A DNA stretch of 38,150 nt, from positions 1 to 38,150 of the IMG/VR virus record IMGVR_UViG_3300045739_000037; one strand, written 5' to 3'. The stretch is from a virus. The notes beneath the pieces were generated by a model. The model ran no database searches and was not told the origin of the DNA. It worked only from the letters and a program-made list of their open reading frames with translations. Below, piece after piece: positions 5,501 through 29,414 of this stretch (position 1 is the first letter of the stretch; each line of letters starts with the position of its first letter). The translations under genes were made by a program, and so were the position numbers.

Positions 5501-6253
5501 TCACTTACACATAATTAAATTTTGATGTTGTGGATTATTATATGGATGCTCTAATGTAATATCCTTCATGCCGGAGGCAACCGTAAAACTTGTTATTTTG
5601 TCCCCAGATTGGCTATAAAGTGCGGCTGTCGAACCCACTGAGGCATCTAAAAGCCACCACCCGTTAGCATCACAAGCAATGCCGTTAAGGGTTCCCGCCC
5701 CCGTATTGATAGATTGAAAATTCCTAATAGTCGTCCCATCAATATTATAACCATAGATAGGTACACCCGCTAAGGAGTTGTTTATTGTCCATAACGCCCG
5801 GCCACGCATGCAAAGACCCTCTAAATTCGGAGCACTCGGATATGTAACGCTCCACTTGAGTCTATTGGACCAGTTATAACTACTTATTTGATAAGATGCC
5901 GGTATGGACGTTTGGACGGCTAGCGTGTAATAACCTAGACCATCAATAGCAAACCCTCGATAAGTGGTAAACGCTGCGGCTCTAGCCACTTGCAGCAAGC
6001 TATTTACCGCCTGAAAACCCCGAGTGAACCGAACCAGAAGAATTGAAGGTCCTCCGGCGAACGGGCCGCCGCTAGTAGCTCCCGCAACGAGGTATGACCC
6101 GTCGCCGACACTTTGTATTGCCTGACAGTTGGTATGACCAGAAACGATACCCACCTGCCTCTTTTTCTGCCCAGTCTTACTATAAACGTAATACTGAGCT
6201 TGAACTGTTGAAGCAATAAGCCAGACTATGCAGAACGCTATTAGTTTGAGCAC
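5501..6253 (-). CDS. Secreted beta-propeller-like protein
   Basis: 250 residues. The GTG start at 6253 is placed by GGAGGT a few bases upstream, and it overlaps the end of the upstream gene by 13 bp. Residues 1-19 form a Sec-type signal peptide: Leu-Lys, a hydrophobic core (IAFCIVWLIAS), then Val-Gln-Ala before a Gln-Tyr-Tyr mature end. The mature part has repeated short blade-like units ending in Asp-Gly or Gly-x-Trp-x-Leu, as in Kelch, TolB or lactonase-like beta-propellers, with no obvious catalytic motif. An exported protein is odd in the middle of a head operon: it could be a periplasmic or surface factor made late, or a virion protein whose hydrophobic start anchors it. Confidence 0.65.
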   Translation of the reverse strand: MLKLIAFCIVWLIASTVQAQYYVYSKTGQKKRQVGIVSGHTNCQAIQSVGDGSYLVAGATSGGPFAGGPSILLVRFTRGFQAVNSLLQVARAAAFTTYRGFAIDGLGYYTLAVQTSIPASYQISSYNWSNRLKWSVTYPSAPNLEGLCMRGRALWTINNSLAGVPIYGYNIDGTTIRNFQSINTGAGTLNGIACDANGWWLLDASVGSTAALYSQSGDKITSFTVASGMKDITLEHPYNNPQHQNLIMCK

Positions 6254-7908
6254 GACACCTCCGCATCGTCAATGTCAAATTTAACGCTGGCACTGGAACA
6301 CCCTGTACATGTGGCGGTAATGCTTATGTAGCGATGGTGAACGCGAAATGGATAGCTAAAACAAATCTCACTGGACACCTCCACATCTTCATGCATCCAG
6401 TTGGACAAAAAGCCCTCCCGATACTCATAATCCACGGTTCCATCGTTTGAGCCGCGAATAACAAAGGTCATTCTTGTGGGAGCACCCGTACTATCTAAAC
6501 AATAACTGAAGCGGCACTCCCTATAATTCCACACCTCAATGTCGCCTGATGTCCTGGTTGTGGTGTTTTCATAAGCATCATCAATATTTGTCGGGTAATA
6601 CCAAACTTTATTTACCCCCTCCACCTGCTCGCCGTAGCGGTTTACGGCTATATCCACTCTATCCGCCGCAGCCACCTCCGAGGCTCCCCCAGAGGGTTCT
6701 GAAACTGTGTCTGGCTCATAATCCGTTGCCTTGCCTCCTATTTTCACGGGCCAGGAATCTCTGCCCGAAACAGTGTCGGTATCATCGTGTGCTCTTGAGC
6801 CGCCGATAACGAGTTCACCTTCCGTTGAGCTAGATACAGCATTAATCTCTACTACCTTATTGCCGTCGAGGTCTGCGATAATATTAGGCACCAGATACAA
6901 CGAACCAGCCGCATAAGCGGTATAGGGCTGAACTTGACCACCAACGGTTTGACCCCCAATCACGATAGGGTTATCGGTTCGCGTAGCTCCGACAGCGTCT
7001 GCCCCTTCTATCGGAAGTGGATTAGTAATGGAAACGTCGGTATCCGCAACCTGCATATTGGCGTTGGCGTTGAGCGAATCGTGCGTGCTTTGCGTTACGT
7101 CGGGAAGCGTTAGTACGTCCACATCGCCAATGTTGTTTGTCCCTGCCGGTAAGGAATCCGATATGTCAACTTGAAATTTTCCATCAGTATCTAATAGCGG
7201 ATAATAATCCACGCCTAACCCGTCTTTACTAGTGTTAGAGTTGATGCTTACGGGTCCGGTTCCAGAACTTAAACCGACAGTGCCATCAACTGTTATGACG
7301 TTTCCGCCATCTTGGATGTTTACAGCCGCTACACCTGCTGCATTGTCTACTGTTACGTTGTGCCCATCGGCTAATTGATTGGCTGAAGTAGCCAAACCAA
7401 CACTGTCAGCCGCAATGTCGCATTGATACTGCCCTCCAGAAACTCCAGCAGCCAAAGTGCTAGTGTCGCCATCTATAGTGGTAAGTAGAGCCTCTGCCGC
7501 TGAAAGGGTTGACTCCGTAGCTAAGTTTGCCGAGTTACTCTGCACTTGCCAAGGGGCACCGCCCTGGTTGGCAGTTATGGTTCCACTAATAGGTTGAGTA
7601 TCAAAAGGAGTTGTAGCATTATAAAAAGATGTACCATCAGATAAACGACAAGCATGAGGTGACGCCGCAGTAATGTGCTCTTCTGCCGGACTTGCCGGAA
7701 TATTATCCGTATTAAGTTTCGTAGCTTCAACAGCAGTCTTAATATCACCGGAATTAGCCTCCGTCATATTTAAGTCAGCAGCCGTGTCTTGTACCGCTTC
7801 AACACTGTCCGTTGAGCTATTTAAGTACCTTTGTCCAAAAGCCGGTGTTGCGAGAATTAACCCGAGACAACAACTAAGGTAACATCCTGTGAGCCACCTC
7901 TTATACAT
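6241..7908 (-). CDS. Large beta-rich protein with signal peptide
   Basis: 555 residues from ATG 7908, chosen because GGAGGT lies seven bases upstream; a longer reading to 7956 lacks such a site. Residues 1-26 look like a signal peptide (MYKRWL, hydrophobic CYLSCCLGLILATPAF, then Gly-Gln). The body is Asp/Thr/Val-rich with repeated 'VNIQDGGNVITVDGTV'-type units around residues 185-225, a layout common in phage structural proteins. The last 90 residues form a Cys-containing beta domain (GSNDGTVDYEYREGF) like receptor- or carbohydrate-binding modules. The first 52 bp overlap the end of the upstream gene in another frame. It may be an exported adhesin-like or virion fibre protein. Confidence 0.65.
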   Translation of the reverse strand: MYKRWLTGCYLSCCLGLILATPAFGQRYLNSSTDSVEAVQDTAADLNMTEANSGDIKTAVEATKLNTDNIPASPAEEHITAASPHACRLSDGTSFYNATTPFDTQPISGTITANQGGAPWQVQSNSANLATESTLSAAEALLTTIDGDTSTLAAGVSGGQYQCDIAADSVGLATSANQLADGHNVTVDNAAGVAAVNIQDGGNVITVDGTVGLSSGTGPVSINSNTSKDGLGVDYYPLLDTDGKFQVDISDSLPAGTNNIGDVDVLTLPDVTQSTHDSLNANANMQVADTDVSITNPLPIEGADAVGATRTDNPIVIGGQTVGGQVQPYTAYAAGSLYLVPNIIADLDGNKVVEINAVSSSTEGELVIGGSRAHDDTDTVSGRDSWPVKIGGKATDYEPDTVSEPSGGASEVAAADRVDIAVNRYGEQVEGVNKVWYYPTNIDDAYENTTTRTSGDIEVWNYRECRFSYCLDSTGAPTRMTFVIRGSNDGTVDYEYREGFLSNWMHEDVEVSSEICFSYPFRVHHRYISITATCTGCSSASVKFDIDDAEVSCSN

Positions 7909-8354
7909 GTAATTACCTCCGTAAAAATCACTCCATAATTTGCCATATGCCACCACTCACCAGGTCGAAGTTGGATTTTGCTAGTAGTAGCAGCCGCACC
8001 AATGTTTAGGTACGCAGATTCAGCAGTGTCTTTATTAAAAATGCTTGCAGCCAAGCGACTTCCACTGGCAGCTAATGCAGTACCAGAAGCGGAGCCAGCA
8101 GTCACTTCGGTAACTGTAGCAGAAGATACAACAACAGGAGTAGAGTTGACAGGAACGGTCTCACCATCAAGAGTAACCTTAACATCATTACTTTGCGTAC
8201 CTTTAGAAATGTCATTAATATCAACATCAGGAATGGAGTCAGCAATAAAATGCTGAACTAACGCACCACCATCGTCAGTAACCTTTACCGGATAATCATC
8301 ATTGGTATCGGCATCGAACGAAGTCTTTTTATTGGTTACGGTCTGCGAACCCAT
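7857..8354 (-). CDS. Capsid-fibre or head-fibre-like protein
   Basis: 165 residues, ATG 8354 after GGAGGAG. The N-terminal half is Asp/Thr/Val-rich with DFA-type repeats (YPVKVTDDGG; ADSIPDVDIND; NDVKVTLDGETVPV). The C-terminal half has 'SAYLNIGAAATTSKIQLRPG' then Glu-Trp-Trp-His and a closing Val-rich strand pair. That last pattern (x-L-x-I-G-x-A-A-T, L-x-P-G-E) is a recurrent small beta-sandwich in phage head or receptor-binding proteins. It directly follows the portal gene with a 3-bp gap. No signal peptide. The assignment is from pattern and position. Confidence 0.65.
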   Translation of the reverse strand: MGSQTVTNKKTSFDADTNDDYPVKVTDDGGALVQHFIADSIPDVDINDISKGTQSNDVKVTLDGETVPVNSTPVVVSSATVTEVTAGSASGTALAASGSRLAASIFNKDTAESAYLNIGAAATTSKIQLRPGEWWHMANYGVIFTEVITCIRGGSQDVTLVVVSG

Positions 8355-16622: not shown

Positions 16623-16857
16623 AGCTAAATACCCTAGACTTAGACATGTAAGCGTTACAGACCTGTTAGGCCCTCCGCTTGATGCAGATACAGCAGCTTC
16701 AGTTGAATGTGACCGCATCAGAGAACGAAGGCTTGGCAAATGTGTAACATCAGAACGCAGTATTGGATGGGTCCGAGAGGATGCATACGGAGACTTCGGG
16801 GGTGATAACAACGCTTGCTCAAGCGACTACCTACGAAGACAAAAAAGAGGAGGTTAA
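16615..16857 (+). CDS. Hypothetical protein, 80 residues
   Basis: ATG 16615 with AAAGGAG upstream; a GTG two codons earlier is less likely. Arg- and Asp-rich (ECDRIRERRLGKCVTSERSI), with no hydrophobic core segments, so probably a small, soluble or partly disordered protein. It overlaps the preceding gene by 8 bp and ends 2 bp before the single-strand-binding-like gene. Function unknown. Confidence 0.6.
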   Translation: MSRAKYPRLRHVSVTDLLGPPLDADTAASVECDRIRERRLGKCVTSERSIGWVREDAYGDFGGDNNACSSDYLRRQKRGG

Positions 16858-16859
16858 TT

Positions 16860-17441
16860 ATGAGCCATCAGGAAAAGCAAGAAATTATAAATACTATTCC
16901 TGATGTCGAGGACACGTACGAGACTATCGAGAAGGGAAACCACTTGATGGGTCTCGTACGAATCCAAAACATCGACATGCCCACATGGGACGAGTCAATA
17001 AGTGCATTCAATAAAGAAAAGACAAAGCCAGGTTACCGGCTGTCGTTTCGCTCAAAGGAGAATAAAAACTCTTTTGTAAATATTGATGTCGCTTCTTCTA
17101 CTTTTAAACGCTCCAACATGTGGAACCTCTTGAACAACATGAGCGGAGAGCAGCTAAAGCCTAACGTTAAAAGCAGCGAGCTTTTTGAGACCATGCTAGG
17201 GTTTCAGGGCCAGTGGTTTGATGTTCGAGTAGCTCATAGAGAGGGTAAAGGAAAGTATGAGGGAACATTCTTTGCACACATTAAAGACCTTCAAGTCTAT
17301 CCGGCTGCTAAGTGTCCTAAAGGTAGTGCTCTGGATTTCTTTGGTGAAGAGCTAAAGGAACCGCCTAAGAAGATTCCACATCAGGATGACTTAGAACCCG
17401 AGAAGGATGATAGCTTAGATGATGATGAAATACCTTTCTAG
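16860..17441 (+). CDS. Single-stranded DNA-binding-like protein
   Basis: 193 residues; ATG 16860 after AGAGGAGG. The C-terminus is strongly acidic and ends DDDEIPF, the hallmark of bacterial and phage single-stranded DNA-binding proteins whose tail recruits partner enzymes. The body is beta-rich with aromatic residues suited to an OB fold (VRIQNIDMPTWDESISAF; FQGQWFDVRVAH; GTFFAHIKDLQVYP). I do not recognise the exact family. In this phage, without polymerase or helicase, such a protein could coat replication intermediates and attract host SSB partners. The tail is direct evidence; the OB fold is inferred. Confidence 0.75.
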   Translation: MSHQEKQEIINTIPDVEDTYETIEKGNHLMGLVRIQNIDMPTWDESISAFNKEKTKPGYRLSFRSKENKNSFVNIDVASSTFKRSNMWNLLNNMSGEQLKPNVKSSELFETMLGFQGQWFDVRVAHREGKGKYEGTFFAHIKDLQVYPAAKCPKGSALDFFGEELKEPPKKIPHQDDLEPEKDDSLDDDEIPF

Positions 17442-18620: not shown

Positions 18621-18663
18621 GGAGTACGTCGAGGAACGCAGGAAAGCTAAGGAGCAATCATGA
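18529..18663 (+). CDS. Small basic ORF coupled to protease gene
   Basis: 44 residues from ATG 18529 (GAGG six bases upstream) to TGA 18661-18663. The stop overlaps the protease start as ATGA. The product is very basic (MKNVTRKRKRRRAAFLIPKE) with a helical, charged end. It overlaps the end of the previous gene by 92 bp in another frame, where both sequences are Lys/Arg-rich. It may be real or act mainly to couple translation to the protease. Confidence 0.45.
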   Translation: MKNVTRKRKRRRAAFLIPKEKRSPKQEKLAKEYVEERRKAKEQS

Positions 18664-20018
18664 GAACTTTACTCACCATCTTAGCGTTAGTTATTGCATC
18701 CAATGTATGGGCAACACCGTTAGTATTTAAGGATGAGTATGTTTTGTATAAGGTTAGCCCCGACTTAACAACTGCAAGTTCAGATGATAAAGTATTACTG
18801 GTTAAAACGAAGGGAGGGCATCTTAGGACTGCTAGGCATGAAGAAAGTCGAATGCTCAAACCTTATGACACCCGAGGAGATAAATGCCCAATTGTCTCCC
18901 AGGGTTACGTTTGCTCTCCAAACTTCCTTATCAGACCTGCTTTCCAATCAAACGACCCATACTACAAAAGTCAAATGCTTTATGGAATTAATGGGACATT
19001 TGGAGTGGGTGCAGATAAAGTTTGGGATTCCACCAACGGTAGCGGGGCGTTGGTTGCGGTCCTTGATACCGGAATCGACCTAAACCATCCTGACCTAAAA
19101 CAAAACATTTGGATAAATCCTGGAGAAGCACTCGATGGTAGCGACACTGACGGGAATGGCTACACTGATGACGTATGGGGCTTTAATTTTGCTAATGCTG
19201 GCTTACCATTCGACTACAATGGGCATGGGACGCACGTTGCGGGGACCGTTGCGGCTGTTAGCAATCATATTGGCGTGGTGGGCGTTGCTTATTCTAGTAA
19301 ACTTATCGCTGTTAAAATCATTGGAGACAGTGGTGGTGGTTCTATTTTCTCAGCTATAAAAGGAATAAACTATGTTACAAGTCTGGCTAAGTCTGGTCAT
19401 AATATTGTTGCTATTAACGCTTCTTGGGGTAGTCCTGGATTCTCAGAGCCACTTAGACAAGCAATTCAAGAAGCTGCTGAACAGGGAATCCTCTTCATCG
19501 CAGCAGCAGGAAACCAAGGAGTAAATAATGACAAACATCCGTATTACCCTGCAACATTCGGACTCCCGAATATACTGTCGGTGGGAGCGATTGATAGCGG
19601 AGGGAACGTGGCAACCTTTTCTAACTACGGAGTACAAACCGTCCACCTCTTCGCTCCAGGCGTGGGAATATGGTCAACTATCCCAGATAGACGCTACGAC
19701 CTTCTTTCAGGGACTAGCATGTCTGCACCACACGTTACAGGCGTTGCAGCCCTTCTGCAAGGAGGACTTGCAGACCGTAGACATAAAATCCTTACTGGCG
19801 TTACCAAAAGGGAAAATCTTGCCAAAAGATGTACGACAGCAGGAACAGCGAACGCACTCGGCAGCGTTAGCGGGGCACCTCCCGTGTGCAAGAAAAAGAA
19901 ATGTATAAAATGCTGCAAGGCTTGCAAGGAAAAGTATAAGAAGAAAAAGAAACGTAGAAAGTGTCGGACTAAATGCCGGTACACCTACAACTGTGATAAA
20001 GGAGTTTGTAAAAAGTGA
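18660..20018 (+). CDS. Secreted subtilisin-family (S8) serine protease with Cys/Lys-rich tail
   Basis: 452 residues; ATG 18660 after AAGGAG. A signal peptide spans about residues 1-18 (MRTLLTILALVIASNVWA, cut before Thr-Pro). After a short pro-like region, the S8 domain (about 95-370) keeps all active-site elements: VAVLDTG with D136, NGHGTHVAGT with H189, oxyanion N285 in AAAGNQG, and SGTSMSAPH with S353. An Asp-rich loop DTDGNGYTDD (162-171) fits a calcium site. The C-terminus (about 391-452) has ten Cys among Lys/Arg runs. The role is unknown; degrading host surface protein, processing virion proteins or attacking competing phage are options. Only a few phages are known to me to carry exported S8 proteases. 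Confidence 0.93.
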   Translation: MRTLLTILALVIASNVWATPLVFKDEYVLYKVSPDLTTASSDDKVLLVKTKGGHLRTARHEESRMLKPYDTRGDKCPIVSQGYVCSPNFLIRPAFQSNDPYYKSQMLYGINGTFGVGADKVWDSTNGSGALVAVLDTGIDLNHPDLKQNIWINPGEALDGSDTDGNGYTDDVWGFNFANAGLPFDYNGHGTHVAGTVAAVSNHIGVVGVAYSSKLIAVKIIGDSGGGSIFSAIKGINYVTSLAKSGHNIVAINASWGSPGFSEPLRQAIQEAAEQGILFIAAAGNQGVNNDKHPYYPATFGLPNILSVGAIDSGGNVATFSNYGVQTVHLFAPGVGIWSTIPDRRYDLLSGTSMSAPHVTGVAALLQGGLADRRHKILTGVTKRENLAKRCTTAGTANALGSVSGAPPVCKKKKCIKCCKACKEKYKKKKKRRKCRTKCRYTYNCDKGVCKK

Positions 20019-20653
20019 GTAAAGAAATAGTAATAGCACATTATAACGAACCGCTTGAGTGGATTAAGGATATACCGGAAGGCTGGCGTATTGTTGTCTA
20101 CTTCAAGGGCAAGAAGCCTGAGCCAGTAGAGGGAGTTCTATATAGAGAGCTAGAGAATGTAGGTAGAGAGTCACACACGTACCTTTACCACATCATAGCT
20201 AACTACGATAAGCTCTGTGACATAACTGTGTTCACTCAAGCTGACCCATTCGACCACAACATAAAGTTCCTAGAAGAACTAAAGTACGTTAAGGAAGATA
20301 TATCCTTTCGCCGGCTCTCAAGGCGTGGCCTCTTGCATGATGAAGCTCTATATCCACATCTAGCAGGAGATAAGTATCCAGAGTTCTTCCGTGAGACAAT
20401 GGGCTACGATTGTGACGCTATGAACTTCTGCTTTGCGAACGCTATCTTTGCGGTGAACAAGGACGTAGTGCAGGGAAGGCATCTTGATTTTTATAGAGAC
20501 CTATTCACACGACTACCTCAAACGCTCATGCCTTTTCAGGGACACTTTATAGAACGTATGTGGGCTAGGATATTCCGTGTGGTAGAGAAGCCAACAGATA
20601 AACAGATGGTTGCTATCAGCCGACTATTACATGAGATGGAAAATGAAAGTTAG
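20015..20653 (+). CDS. DUF3431 glycosyltransferase-like protein
   Basis: 212 residues from GTG 20015, overlapping the protease stop as GTGA, with AAGGAG upstream. The pattern fits DUF3431: VIAHYNEPLEWIKDIPEGWR at the start, a Y-x-x-x-x-x-L-x-N-V-G-R-E-S-H-T-Y segment (LENVGRESHTYLYHIIANYD, about 48-67) and VFTQADPFDH (about 75-84). The family is found in surface polysaccharide clusters and is thought related to glycosyltransferases; its reaction is not firmly established. It lies between the protease and a GT-A-type glycosyltransferase, suggesting cell-surface or virion sugar modification. Confidence 0.8.
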   Translation: MSKEIVIAHYNEPLEWIKDIPEGWRIVVYFKGKKPEPVEGVLYRELENVGRESHTYLYHIIANYDKLCDITVFTQADPFDHNIKFLEELKYVKEDISFRRLSRRGLLHDEALYPHLAGDKYPEFFRETMGYDCDAMNFCFANAIFAVNKDVVQGRHLDFYRDLFTRLPQTLMPFQGHFIERMWARIFRVVEKPTDKQMVAISRLLHEMENES

Positions 20654-21437
20654 TTTAATTACTCCAACAGGTGGTAGACCGCTTGCCTTCAGCATTTGTG
20701 AACGTTGGATGGCAAGACAGACTAAGATATGGGATGAGTGGTATGTCCTAGATGACTGCGACCCTGCCACTCCCCTAACGCTAGGGCAGCGTAGTATAAG
20801 ACCATCCTGGCGATGGGAAAAGGGAATGGACACACAGAGAGAGAATGTTTGTGAGCTGCTTGATGCTGTTACCGGAGACATTATCTTCTTTATTGAAGAT
20901 GATGATTGGTATCACCCTAATTACATAAAGAAGATGTGCAAGCTCGCAGAGGTGACGGGAGCTAATGCAGTAGGGGAAGCGTTCTCTAGGCACTACCACA
21001 TTTTATCACGTTGCTATTATCAATTCCCCAACACTGAGTATTCTCCTTTATGCTCTACCGTTATTACCAGAGAGAACATTCCTAACATGATAAAGGCATG
21101 TCAGATTAAGGAGACTCCTATAGACGGGACGTTTTGGTGTAACTTTTCTAAAGGAGCACTGATAAAAGGTGACTTAGTGTTAGGTATTAAAGGACTTCCA
21201 GGTAGACAAGCCTCTAGTGCATGGCACAATGAAAGCGGTAGAGACGTTGCTAAGATGAAATACTTCGGAGCTTCAGTTGATAACTATGGAACTATATTAA
21301 GAGATTGGATAGGAGAGAGGGATGCCAAAGTCTACGAACAAATTCAATGCAAGGAAGACGGAGGTGGACGGGTTCCTGTTCGACAGCAAGAAGGAGAGCG
21401 AGAGGTATCTGTACCTGAAAGCAAGGATGGCGAATAA
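20643..21437 (+). CDS. Glycosyltransferase, family 2-like (GT-A fold)
   Basis: 264 residues from ATG 20643, at MKVSLITPTGGRP; an earlier in-frame ATG would lie inside the previous gene. GT-A features are VSLITPTGGRP (nucleotide-sugar entry), EWYVLDDCDPATP and the metal-binding acidic motif in FIEDDDWYHPNYI (about residues 78-90). The last 38 residues are read out of frame through the start of the next gene, so the true ancestral stop may have been lost. It probably moves a sugar from a nucleotide donor to an unknown acceptor; with DUF3431 it could glycosylate DNA, protein or a surface polymer. Confidence 0.8.
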   Translation: MKVSLITPTGGRPLAFSICERWMARQTKIWDEWYVLDDCDPATPLTLGQRSIRPSWRWEKGMDTQRENVCELLDAVTGDIIFFIEDDDWYHPNYIKKMCKLAEVTGANAVGEAFSRHYHILSRCYYQFPNTEYSPLCSTVITRENIPNMIKACQIKETPIDGTFWCNFSKGALIKGDLVLGIKGLPGRQASSAWHNESGRDVAKMKYFGASVDNYGTILRDWIGERDAKVYEQIQCKEDGGGRVPVRQQEGEREVSVPESKDGE

Positions 21438-23710: not shown

Positions 23711-23926
23711 CTATTTACCCAGTTTAGCTTTAACTCTCCAGTGCAGTAGACCGAGTCCACCATAAGCACCAGCGATATACTCAAGTATTACTATAATCTC
23801 TGCCCACGGAATTGTAGGCCAGAGAACTACAGCGTAATGAGTAATGAGAAAGATAATCGTACCGATTACCGTCTTCTCGCCATTCCAGGGTAGTAACCCC
23901 AACAGTTTATCTAGGAACTTATACAT
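23711..23926 (-). CDS. Small two-helix membrane protein, holin candidate
   Basis: 71 residues. I chose ATG 23926 (MYKFLDKLLGLLPWNGEKTV) because AGGGG lies a good distance upstream; ATG 23932 is too close to it. Two hydrophobic segments (about residues 17-35, 40-58) are joined by a Pro-Trp turn, and the end is basic (LLHWRVKAKLGK). Phage holins often look like this: short, two helices and a charged tail. It is next to an XhlA-like gene, which supports a lysis role. An endolysin partner is not visible next to it. Confidence 0.6.
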   Translation of the reverse strand: MYKFLDKLLGLLPWNGEKTVIGTIIFLITHYAVVLWPTIPWAEIIVILEYIAGAYGGLGLLHWRVKAKLGK

Positions 23927-23935
23927 AAGCATCCC

Positions 23936-26251: not shown

Positions 26252-27246
26252 TAGTTTGTATACGTTCCTTTATAATATCCCCACTTAGATGAGGTTAAGC
26301 CCATAAAACAATATGTATATCCTACGGGTACTTCTACATAAGCACTAGGAGAATTTGTTGAGATTTGTTCTCCCACTTGAGGATAAACCCTAAGCTCATC
26401 TCCTGTACCATGATGAGCAACATAAAAGAGCTTTCCTTCATTGCCATCCGCAGTGGGTAATCTCGCATACCCATTCCCAGCATGACTCACTGCTCCAGTA
26501 AACTCACTAACTATATATGTTATGGAGGTTGGACTACCCGTTGTGCCAGCAGATTTGCTAGTTTCTACAGCAGGAACAAAGCCAACACCAGTATCTTCTG
26601 CGAAGTCAACATCATCGCCAATGTCGTCAACATTAACCTTAGCCGTAGTAAAGGCATCATCTTCAAAGTTAGCATCACCCCACGGGGCCTCGTTGTTCAG
26701 TAAAAGAAATTGAGTACCGTCATAGACAACATCCACGATACCATCCGCAACAATATCTGAAGCCTCTAAATTAGATGTTGCATCTTGCCGAAGGATATTC
26801 TTATCCCCAAGAGCGTTCACATTAAGGGTAGCCGCTCCGCCATTAGAGTTATTAGCAATAAAACGAAACATTTGACCGGCAGCATAGGCAGACGGAGCAA
26901 CAGGAACGGTTATATCGTAATTAACACCAGCTACGCCCCCGTCTGTTGCAGTTCCGCCCCAAAGGAGAGAGCCATCTTGAACTTGACCAACCGTTACATA
27001 CTCATCAAGTGCTGTAGCGATACCAACGTTTGTGCAGGTGTTGGAGTAGTTCATGTCCAAATCACCTGTCATAGCATTTTGCCCGTCCTTGCAGAGACAA
27101 GCATTTATACCATCAGCAATATCCTGGTCGTGAGTATCGTGACGGGTGTCTACGATTTTATCACCATCATCTCTATCGTCCTGCCATAGAGTTGCACCAG
27201 TGTTATCACCGTTGGTCCTGCTAAATGTGCTTCCGCTAAATGCCAT
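26251..27246 (-). CDS. Tail-fibre-like protein, paralog 1 of 3
   Basis: 331 residues. N-terminal FSRTNGDNTGATLWQDDRDD then RHDTHDQDIADGINACLCKD; middle Asn/Asp/Gly-rich beta sheet with an 'AATLNVNALGDKNILRQD' unit; C-terminal GNGYARLPTADGNEGKLFYV and YTYCFMGLTSSKWGYYKG. The conserved N-terminal 70 residues probably dock to the tail and the distal part meets the host. It lies after the 722-residue internal protein. Confidence 0.75.
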   Translation of the reverse strand: MAFSGSTFSRTNGDNTGATLWQDDRDDGDKIVDTRHDTHDQDIADGINACLCKDGQNAMTGDLDMNYSNTCTNVGIATALDEYVTVGQVQDGSLLWGGTATDGGVAGVNYDITVPVAPSAYAAGQMFRFIANNSNGGAATLNVNALGDKNILRQDATSNLEASDIVADGIVDVVYDGTQFLLLNNEAPWGDANFEDDAFTTAKVNVDDIGDDVDFAEDTGVGFVPAVETSKSAGTTGSPTSITYIVSEFTGAVSHAGNGYARLPTADGNEGKLFYVAHHGTGDELRVYPQVGEQISTNSPSAYVEVPVGYTYCFMGLTSSKWGYYKGTYTN

Positions 27247-29414
27247 TAACTTCTCCCAAGTGCAGCTTTAATCTTCTTAACGTAAGCTGGGTCAGCCTCA
27301 CCTCTCCACTTCTTAATAAACTTCTCTACATCACCATCAACGCTATCAAGTTCAGACTGTATTACTCTCTCTGCCCATCGTGCATACATAGCTCTATCAG
27401 CAGGGTTATTCATGTCTCCTTCACCACCAAGTCCATACTTAGGGTCAGAGTCCTTAGCATCTAAGAACTTCTCCGCTTGAGTAATAAAGCGTTTAGTAAA
27501 CTCAAGCATCTCAGGGTCATCTTTAAAGACCTTACGCCGTATCATCTCCTTCGCTAAGGTTCCTGTAATCTGAACAGGCCCGTAAGCAGATGACTTCCTA
27601 CGCCGTGGTCCACCAACTTTAGTCCTTATAAACCTCTTCTCACTTGCAACGGGAGTTGCTTCAGTCTTTGGACCTGTTTCTGCTCCCGTTAGAGCGTTAT
27701 ATAGAGGTGTCTGTTCAGTCATTTTTTTTTTACTATCCCCACCAACAGTAGTATTATTAGTAAGGCCAGAGACAAGTGCTTGAGCATTCTGTTCAACATT
27801 AGGGGCCTCCGCTTCACGGGCAGCACCAACTAATCCAGTAACAACTGGCCTTGTTGGGTCAACAGCACCAACTGGAAGTTTGCCAATCCCTCTTATGGCC
27901 TTTCCAATTGCCTTACTACCAGGCTTAGATGCTGCTGCGGAGAGCGTAGCTCCCATAGCAAGTCCCGCACCTGGACTGCCCATTACGTATCCGATACCTC
28001 CAAAACCAAACGTTGGACTAAAGATTCTACCCATTCTGATAGCTTTATCTATAATCGTCCTAGAACGTGCTTCACCAAGAGAATGCTGTAGGATAGGACC
28101 AAGCTCATGATAAGCAGAGAGCTTCTTATATGCTGTTTCGAAACGAACAAACTCTTCTGGGGTTAGGTGCTCCTTAGCATAGGCTTTAATTGAATCCCTA
28201 ATATCAAGACCAGCAGCCTTCTTCATGCCATTAAGAGTCTTACCATCAACATCCCAGTTAATGTCTTCATAGACTGAAACCTTATCATCTACCGCATCTC
28301 GAATGGAGTCATAAGTCCGGTTCGAATAGGTGTCCTTGATGTTTGCTATCTCACCAGCCTCTTCTCCAGTTGGAGTTTCCTTCTTATGAGGTGGTGTCTT
28401 CTTCTTAAACTGCTTATCCATCCGAGTAGTCTGAACAACCAAGGGGTCGTCTACGTTGTCGAGCTTATCGAAAAGGTCGTTAAGGTCACTGTAATACCCC
28501 TCTACTTTCTCATGGGCACGAATCAGCATTTCCTCTTCATCTGGGAAGCCCTTTAAGAAGTCATCAGCTTCAGCAGTATCAATAGCTTCATCAAGGTCAG
28601 TTACTACTCGCTTCTTCTTAGTATCGACATCCTCTATAACATCGTAATGTTTCTTAAGCTGCTTTTTCCAGTCGCCACTACGAATACCCATGCCGACCTT
28701 TTCCATCTTCTTGGCAATCTTCTCAGTGCCGGCTTCAAGTCCAGGACTAGGCTTCCTGACTAACACCTTTCCACCTAACCTAGCTATCGGTTCTGCAACC
28801 GCATACTCACCAAGCCTTTCAGCATAGAGGTTACCCATGTCACTAAAGGATGGAATCTCTTCATCCGTTAAAGCACCCTTAATAACATTAACAATATTAT
28901 CAAACGTGGCTCCACCAACAGCAGCTCCAGCAACATTACCAGCAGGACCACCAGGGGTGCCTAAGAGACCACCGGCTATTTCACTAGCTGCCCTACCTGT
29001 GCCGTGAATACCCTTTTCAACCATACCCAAAGTAACGTCTTCTTTATCTGGAAGAAGTGGCCTAAGAAGAGCCATCGGTAATGCTGCTGGACCAGAGGCT
29101 TGAACACTTGGATGCTGAGCTTCATAATAGACATCCTTGGCATACTCAGGGAGAGTCTCAGTCACGAAGGAGGGAATACCCTTTGCTAATTCTACTAAAC
29201 CAGAAGCGGTCGTTTTTGCTCCGGTTGTAAAGCTACCAATAGGGTCAAAGCCTCCTTCGGTATCAGGGGTAGCAGACTGTAGGCCCAACTTCAAATCGAA
29301 CTCATCTCTCGACATGTCTGAGTAGTGTGCTTCATAGAGTTTACCAGCTAACGTGGTATCATCCATGTCATCATACTCAGGATATTGTGCTCTAAAGTCT
29401 TCTAATCCACTCAT
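27246..29414 (-). CDS. Large internal virion protein with possible transglycosylase end
   Basis: 722 residues. The N-terminal motif FRAQYPEYDDMDDTTLAGKL, then YEAHYSDMSRDEFDLKLGL is a recurrent opening of phage ejection proteins. Long helical and Ala/Gly-rich stretches (about 100-200, 480-530) suit a protein stored in the head. From about residue 610 a segment (RRRKSSAYGPVQITGTLAKE) recalls the Gly-x-x-Gln element of lytic transglycosylases, with a Glu (SEKRF) about 20 residues before it, so a local peptidoglycan-cutting end is possible. It overlaps the upstream stop as TAATG. Confidence 0.7.
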   Translation of the reverse strand: MSGLEDFRAQYPEYDDMDDTTLAGKLYEAHYSDMSRDEFDLKLGLQSATPDTEGGFDPIGSFTTGAKTTASGLVELAKGIPSFVTETLPEYAKDVYYEAQHPSVQASGPAALPMALLRPLLPDKEDVTLGMVEKGIHGTGRAASEIAGGLLGTPGGPAGNVAGAAVGGATFDNIVNVIKGALTDEEIPSFSDMGNLYAERLGEYAVAEPIARLGGKVLVRKPSPGLEAGTEKIAKKMEKVGMGIRSGDWKKQLKKHYDVIEDVDTKKKRVVTDLDEAIDTAEADDFLKGFPDEEEMLIRAHEKVEGYYSDLNDLFDKLDNVDDPLVVQTTRMDKQFKKKTPPHKKETPTGEEAGEIANIKDTYSNRTYDSIRDAVDDKVSVYEDINWDVDGKTLNGMKKAAGLDIRDSIKAYAKEHLTPEEFVRFETAYKKLSAYHELGPILQHSLGEARSRTIIDKAIRMGRIFSPTFGFGGIGYVMGSPGAGLAMGATLSAAASKPGSKAIGKAIRGIGKLPVGAVDPTRPVVTGLVGAAREAEAPNVEQNAQALVSGLTNNTTVGGDSKKKMTEQTPLYNALTGAETGPKTEATPVASEKRFIRTKVGGPRRRKSSAYGPVQITGTLAKEMIRRKVFKDDPEMLEFTKRFITQAEKFLDAKDSDPKYGLGGEGDMNNPADRAMYARWAERVIQSELDSVDGDVEKFIKKWRGEADPAYVKKIKAALGRS

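Follow-up and report, generated by a model that had tools for sequence, protein, structure and literature searches.

A phage-encoded subtilase of exported type with a predicted cysteine-stapled hairpin tail

Why would a phage encode an apparently exported protease with a cationic, cysteine-rich tail, and what might that tail do? Secreted proteases of small phages are little studied, and a limited literature search returned no description of an architecture combining a secreted S8 protease with a cysteine hairpin tail. Here, we analyze a candidate for such a protein in the virus record IMGVR_UViG_3300045739_000037, the whole 38,150 bp of which constitute the window.

Results

An intact protease gene in a relative of phage Mx8

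Because a 127-bp repeat is present at both ends of the window, we read it as an assembled, repeat-closed and probably complete phage genome. The protease open reading frame (ORF; Table 1) is real, its frame is intact, and its GC and GC3 are similar to those of the neighboring genes. An earlier, sequence-only reading of the locus had named a chimeric contig as a finding that would overturn it; such an origin is unlikely given the terminal repeat, the 4-bp overlap between the protease stop and the GTG start of the next gene, the composition shared with the neighbors and the presence of a comparable protein in a related phage. A simple chimera was rejected on the first three of these grounds, and a frameshifted 3′ end was rejected because the C-terminal S8 motif runs on to about residue 405.

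Named phages related to the carrier by the capsid protein include Bradyrhizobium phage ppBjS10J-1, Stenotrophomonas phage BUCT555 and Myxococcus phages Mx8 and Mx9, and by such sequence relationships the carrier is judged to be a relative of Mx8. Host searches with the same protein produced a match in 1 of 58 genomes from the phylum of a Silvanigrella MAG (G101) and two matches, both weak, among 237 genomes from the phylum of a ‘Deltaproteobacteria’ MAG (G097); with matches so few or weak in both phyla, we name no host. One further record (L358) is merely a short capsid contig.

The protease gene is followed, in order, by a DUF3431 gene, a glycosyltransferase family 2 (GT2) gene with a marginal match (24.6 bits against a cut-off of 23.3) and a DUF1064/resolvase-like gene, and in the sequence these four genes look like one operon. 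Of the two adjacent sugar-transferase-like genes proposed earlier, one stands as the marginal GT2, whereas the other is the DUF3431 gene, with no assigned function. The protease gene would lie in the early arm, an assignment made from strand and neighbors alone. An SSB-like ORF (16815-17441, plus strand) ends in DDDEIPF; taken with the DUF1064 resolvase-like gene and a weak PDDEXK ORF, it points to a recombination module. No polymerase or integrase was matched among the ORFs scanned.

Scans of IMG/VR and of phages for DUF3431 returned no match. In another virus, L142, an S8 gene and a trypsin-like ORF each have two DUF3431-like ORFs at a distance of ~3-4 kb, an arrangement that is no more than suggestive. 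There, at L142:9157-10810, the trypsin-family ORF, which has a hydrophobic N-terminus, directly overlaps the S8 ORF, and both DUF3431-like ORFs, along with sugar genes, are located 3-5 kb downstream of this pair. In the late arm of the window, the product of ORF 5501-6253 (minus strand) has a strong signal-peptide-like N-terminus and no Pfam match, and in the adjoining ORF 6241-7956 a comparable hydrophobic stretch accompanies an internal start.

Table 1 Features of the protease gene and its downstream neighbors in the window
Feature	Coordinates	Strand	Basis
Shine-Dalgarno AAGGAG of the protease gene	18649..18654	+	Read in the sequence
S8 subtilase gene, 452 aa, ATG start	18660..20018	+	PF00082, E 3.1e-55 (Pfam); phrog_3677; deseasin MCP-01
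Putative signal peptide MRTLLTILALVIASNVWA, residues 1-18	18660..18713	+	Hydrophobic N-terminus; cleavage after VWA inferred by inspection
Presumed propeptide, residues 19-97, with C76 and C85	18714..18950	+	Position relative to homologs
Catalytic domain, ~residues 98-405	18951..19874	+	pLDDT ~88-98; match to 3vv3, rmsd 1.5, target TM 0.92
Catalytic Asp136 codon	19065..19067	+	Invariant in 39 aligned S8 proteins
Calcium-type loop DTDGNGYTDD, residues 162-171	19143..19172	+	Nearly invariant in 39 homologs
Catalytic His189 codon	19224..19226	+	Invariant in 39 aligned S8 proteins
Oxyanion-hole Asn285 codon	19512..19514	+	Invariant in 39 aligned S8 proteins
Catalytic Ser353 codon	19716..19718	+	Invariant in 39 aligned S8 proteins
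Cationic Cys-rich tail, ~residues 406-452, 9 Cys	19875..20015	+	Sequence; missing from bacterial homologs
Predicted tail helix 1, residues 412-425, with C415, C418, C419, C422	19893..19934	+	AlphaFold2; same when folded alone
Predicted tail helix 2, residues 429-442, with C435, C439	19944..19985	+	AlphaFold2, whole protein and tail alone
DUF3431 gene, 212 aa, GTG start, own AAGGAG at 19999-20004	20015..20653	+	PF11913, E 4.8e-14
GT2-like gene, probable ATG at 20643	20643..21437	+	PF00535, E 2.6e-5

S8A catalytic core and N-terminal region

In addition to its Pfam match (Table 1), the protease ORF matches the PHROGs family phrog_3677, ‘protease’ (E = 6.2e-61), and, in phmmer, deseasin MCP-01 (E = 1.9e-65). 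The Asp-His-Ser triad occupies the expected DTG, HGTH and GTSM motifs (AVLDTG for D136, NGHGTHVAGT for H189 and SGTSMSAPH for S353), and the oxyanion-hole asparagine is found in AAAGNQG (N285). The complete active site and the calcium-type loop described earlier were both borne out by the alignment of 39 S8 proteins; within the loop, D162, D164, N166, G167, D170 and D171 are each present in at least 90% of the homologs. Loss of the active site, the other finding on which the earlier reading would have fallen, is ruled out by the invariance of the catalytic residues, and the site is likewise intact in the AlphaFold2 model. Built with the 39 homologs, this model has a mean pLDDT of 85.7, with ~95-98 across most of the core, and displays the subtilisin fold; the top structure in Foldseek is deseasin MCP-01 (E = 9.6e-36, 39% identity). 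On sequence and model, the product is near certain to be an S8A subtilase. The closest cellular S8 domains share ~50% identity with it and are scattered over many phyla, so that no donor can be named; all matching phage proteins are below 60% identity.

The N-terminus is strongly hydrophobic (mean KD of 3.13 across 10 residues), and by this simple measure direct reading of the sequence upholds the proposed signal peptide; the protease is thus presumably exported. The presumed propeptide has no Pfam propeptide match and is poorly predicted by AlphaFold2 (low pLDDT), and for these reasons we withhold the label ‘I9-type propeptide.’

The tail is predicted to fold into a helical hairpin

Residues 405-452 carry a net charge of +20. 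Ten cysteines had been counted in the last 60 residues; nine are found there, and the count of ten holds for the last 62, the tenth being C391. As had been proposed, the tail is foreign to ordinary subtilisins, in that none of the bacterial homologs compared has one like it. AlphaFold2 predicts that it forms a two-helix hairpin, with pLDDT of ~87-93 in the whole-protein model and ~94 when the tail is folded alone with one homolog, with the caveat that AlphaFold2 easily builds helices from Lys-rich sequence and that the comparison covers just two tails. A fold search of the PDB with the small tail model (49 residues) yielded three matches in total, all of them to alpha-hairpinins (the Jug r 2 fragment 9q1l, BWI-2c 2LQX and VBP-8 6o3q), with TM of ~0.6 and weak E values of 7-8. 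Such E values are expected at this length, yet the agreement of all three matches on alpha-hairpinins is notable. The tail is therefore predicted, on the models, to be a disulfide-stapled two-helix hairpin rather than simply a ‘Cys/Lys-rich’ extension.

The core cysteine spacing, C418-X3-C422-X12-C435-X3-C439 (CX3C-X12-CX3C), is compatible with a nested C1-C4, C2-C3 arrangement, and we infer the pairs C418-C439 and C422-C435; C410 and C445 would probably pair as an outer staple. These disulfides would fail to form if the protein folded in a reducing compartment. CX3C counts alone are within the expectation from composition (shuffle p of 0.13 and 0.16), so that it is the alignment between the two tails, along with the fold prediction, that carries the claim for the tail. 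Searches with the tail only gave no match among phages, in IMG/VR or in Pfam, and the best hit among PDB sequences was insignificant (E = 0.47).

A second phage protease with a similar tail

A single-sequence scan of IMG/VR with the protease produced no match, and relatives were gathered with homolog alignments as queries. Among 74 viral S8 ORFs, 65 lack an export signal and nine are exported-like by a simple hydrophobicity rule; most of the sampled proteins are ~300 aa long and belong to the former kind. Only one other, a 477-aa protein encoded in IMGVR_UViG_3300006802_000264 (L102), also ends in a basic, cysteine-rich twin-CX3C tail (CINKC...CRKQC), which is rich in Cys, Arg and Lys and has X13 spacing in place of X12. 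It is likewise of exported type and comes from a phage of the same broad lineage: the capsid proteins match at 31% (E = 1.6e-32), and two further late-arm proteins are related. Unlike the protease described here, it has a lipobox signal and a Pro-rich linker, and the catalytic cores are just 34-39% identical.

Six cysteines align between the two tails, with a score exceeding that of 4,999 of 5,000 composition-preserving shuffles and reached by the remaining one. The cores lie apart in the tree, yet the AU test does not reject their union in one clade (p = 0.197), so that shared descent, tail exchange and convergence are all possible explanations of the resemblance. The occurrence of a protease with such a tail in a distantly related phage suggests an envelope-anchored enzyme. 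Beside the L102 protease lies a phospholipase A2-like ORF (L102:11213-11587) with a CCICHDIEY motif and a below-cut-off match to PF09056 (E = 0.0022).

Other viral S8 proteins have C-terminal additions of their own, with likely envelope roles. That of L104 ends in a Pro-rich linker and a SPOR domain, the latter scored, and L106 has the same tail sequence; the two are possibly a peptidoglycan-targeting variant. The L131 protein ends in a hydrophobic segment and that of L095 in PPC domains. C-terminal targeting thus appears to be a recurrent theme, which lends support by analogy. No S8 protein above the Pfam cut-off was found in 43 records related by the portal or in 49 related by the capsid, many of these 92 records being fragments, and the protease gene accordingly appears, from the sampled sequences, to be accessory.

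Discussion

Proposed role of the protease

We consider it possible, with a probability of roughly 0.4, that the protein is an exported subtilase with a calcium-binding, deseasin-like and self-processing core, which its hairpin tail anchors to the host envelope and which cuts surface proteins of the infected cell; it is the localization, anchoring, target, timing and benefit that we infer. The protease would be exported through Sec and lose its propeptide by self-processing, whereupon the mature enzyme would be held at the envelope by its C-terminal cationic disulfide hairpin, which, as modeled and with its charge of +20, would suit binding to anionic envelope polymers. From there, it would cleave proteins of the envelope or surface in infected or lysogenic cells, perhaps working with the putative sugar-modifying products of the apparently co-transcribed DUF3431 and GT2 genes, and the surface so altered could lose receptors, exclude superinfection or make release easier. 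Sequence does not discriminate between action at the surface, exclusion of superinfecting phages and release. In favor of the envelope-anchored subtilase, we count the S8 identity and active site, the signal peptide, the hairpin model, the L102 tail, the C-terminal additions of other viral S8 proteins and the vicinity of DUF3431 and S8 genes in L142; against it count the helix bias of AlphaFold2, the number of tails (two), the alpha-hairpinin E values of ~7-8, the accessory distribution and the marginal GT2.

The alternative to which we give most weight, although we regard it as unlikely, is lysogenic-conversion or nutritional cargo, whereby a deseasin-like scavenging protease would degrade outside protein to the benefit of host or phage and would play no direct part in conflicts between phages. 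The closest enzymes are indeed secreted bacterial subtilases, many such S8 genes are present in Bdellovibrionota genomes, and the accessory distribution fits; moreover, the layout of ppBjS10J-1 is prophage-like and temperate phages are known among the Mx8-like relatives. However, with no integrase match here, lysogeny is without sequence support, and the tail stands where scavenging deseasins usually have C-terminal domains that bind substrate.

Next in weight, and unlikely as well, is a role as a release factor: perhaps after opening by a holin, the protease would break envelope or S-layer proteins, aid lysis and substitute for a separate endolysin. Consistent with this, no stand-alone endolysin was detected among the ORFs scanned with Pfam or PHROGs (not every ORF by both), a small hydrophobic ORF (23711-23932) is a possible holin, and L102 has its weak phospholipase A2-like gene beside the S8 gene. 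The protease gene, however, is situated in the plus-strand arm among nucleic-acid genes, away from the holin candidate, and a virion protein (27246-29414) may itself end in a transglycosylase-like part. This 722-aa late-arm protein, encoded on the minus strand, has no library match, and its C-terminus (SAYGPVQITG) resembles a virion transglycosylase by eye; the L102 protein at a similar place carries Phage_lysozyme.

Behind these two, and rather improbable, comes a scenario in which some Mx8-like phages fused a cationic stapled hairpin to a captured secreted subtilase, possibly more than once, and so gained an envelope-anchored protease to strip surface proteins and exclude phages or kill neighbors. 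Less probable again is the idea that the tail has no specific fold and is a low-complexity extension of the 3′ end, for example a charge-based sticker, a metal binder or a product of gene-end drift. The tail is Lys-rich and atypical in composition (GC of 0.377 versus 0.475 in the core) and has no Pfam match, and the 3′ end of the gene doubles as the ribosome-binding site of the next one; nevertheless, the six cysteines aligned with L102, at a score reached by one shuffle in 5,000, and the confident hairpin predicted both in the whole protein and alone argue for a fold. We give still less credence to the tail as an effector, a cationic alpha-hairpinin-like peptide freed by self-cleavage to inhibit proteases or to serve as an antimicrobial against competitors, even though its four-cysteine spacing conforms to CX3C-X4-20-CX3C (PMC11591084), the fold matches include the inhibitor BWI-2c and the charge is +20. 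The extra cysteines and the CC pair violate the strict alpha-hairpinin rules, and this is a single short tail. Phages in general use proteases in head maturation, but virion maturation, or a virion-carried protease for prohead or tail processing, is hardly tenable for a product with a signal peptide whose gene lies on the strand opposite the head and tail genes and is missing from relatives with common capsid and portal. Thus, what endures of the sequence-only reading is a phage S8 protease of exported type that carries an unusual tail rich in Cys and Lys, whereas its suggestion of virion tail maturation is disfavored by the signal peptide and the location outside the late arm.

Returning to the envelope-anchored subtilase, the S8A core is known, and what is new here is the predicted fold of the tail. 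Should the hairpin indeed anchor the enzyme to the envelope, it would offer a small module with which to place enzymes on bacterial surfaces, and the editing of the host surface by phages would take in proteins along with sugars. The papers found discuss the helix-hairpin fold for plants, scorpions and fungi; a phage would then join this list, most probably through convergence.

Comparison with known systems

Deseasin MCP-01 of Pseudoalteromonas sp. SM9913 (PDB 3vv3) has the closest catalytic domain and shares all of it with the phage protease, including the acidic calcium-type loop (NGNGY-type). Deseasins have extra C-terminal domains such as PKD; the phage protease, in which PF00082 alone was matched, lacks such long domains and has the cationic cysteine hairpin of ~47 residues instead, as well as a deletion of five residues after the catalytic serine helix. 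Since the C-terminal domains are missing from its sequence, we do not file it as a deseasin.

Alpha-hairpinins (BWI-2c, VBP-8 and the Jug r 2 fragment) resemble the tail in their helix-loop-helix, which in the phage protein is seen in the predicted model only, and in the CX3C-Xn-CX3C pattern. The published rules also exclude a CC adjacent to the core and allow at most two additional cysteines outside the motif (PMC11591084), whereas the tail has CC at 418-419 and five extra cysteines (C410, C415, C419, C445 and C450); hence, on sequence and model, we do not file it as an alpha-hairpinin despite the like shape. Furthermore, alpha-hairpinins are secreted plant peptides, whereas the tail is a domain of a protease, without demonstrated sequence homology to them. 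Finally, the subtilases of Bacillus phages BSP12 and SP-15 (phrog_3677) have the S8 catalytic domain in common with the protease, from which the other sampled viral S8 proteins mostly differ in their shorter length and lack of an export signal, the twin-CX3C tail being shared with L102 alone.
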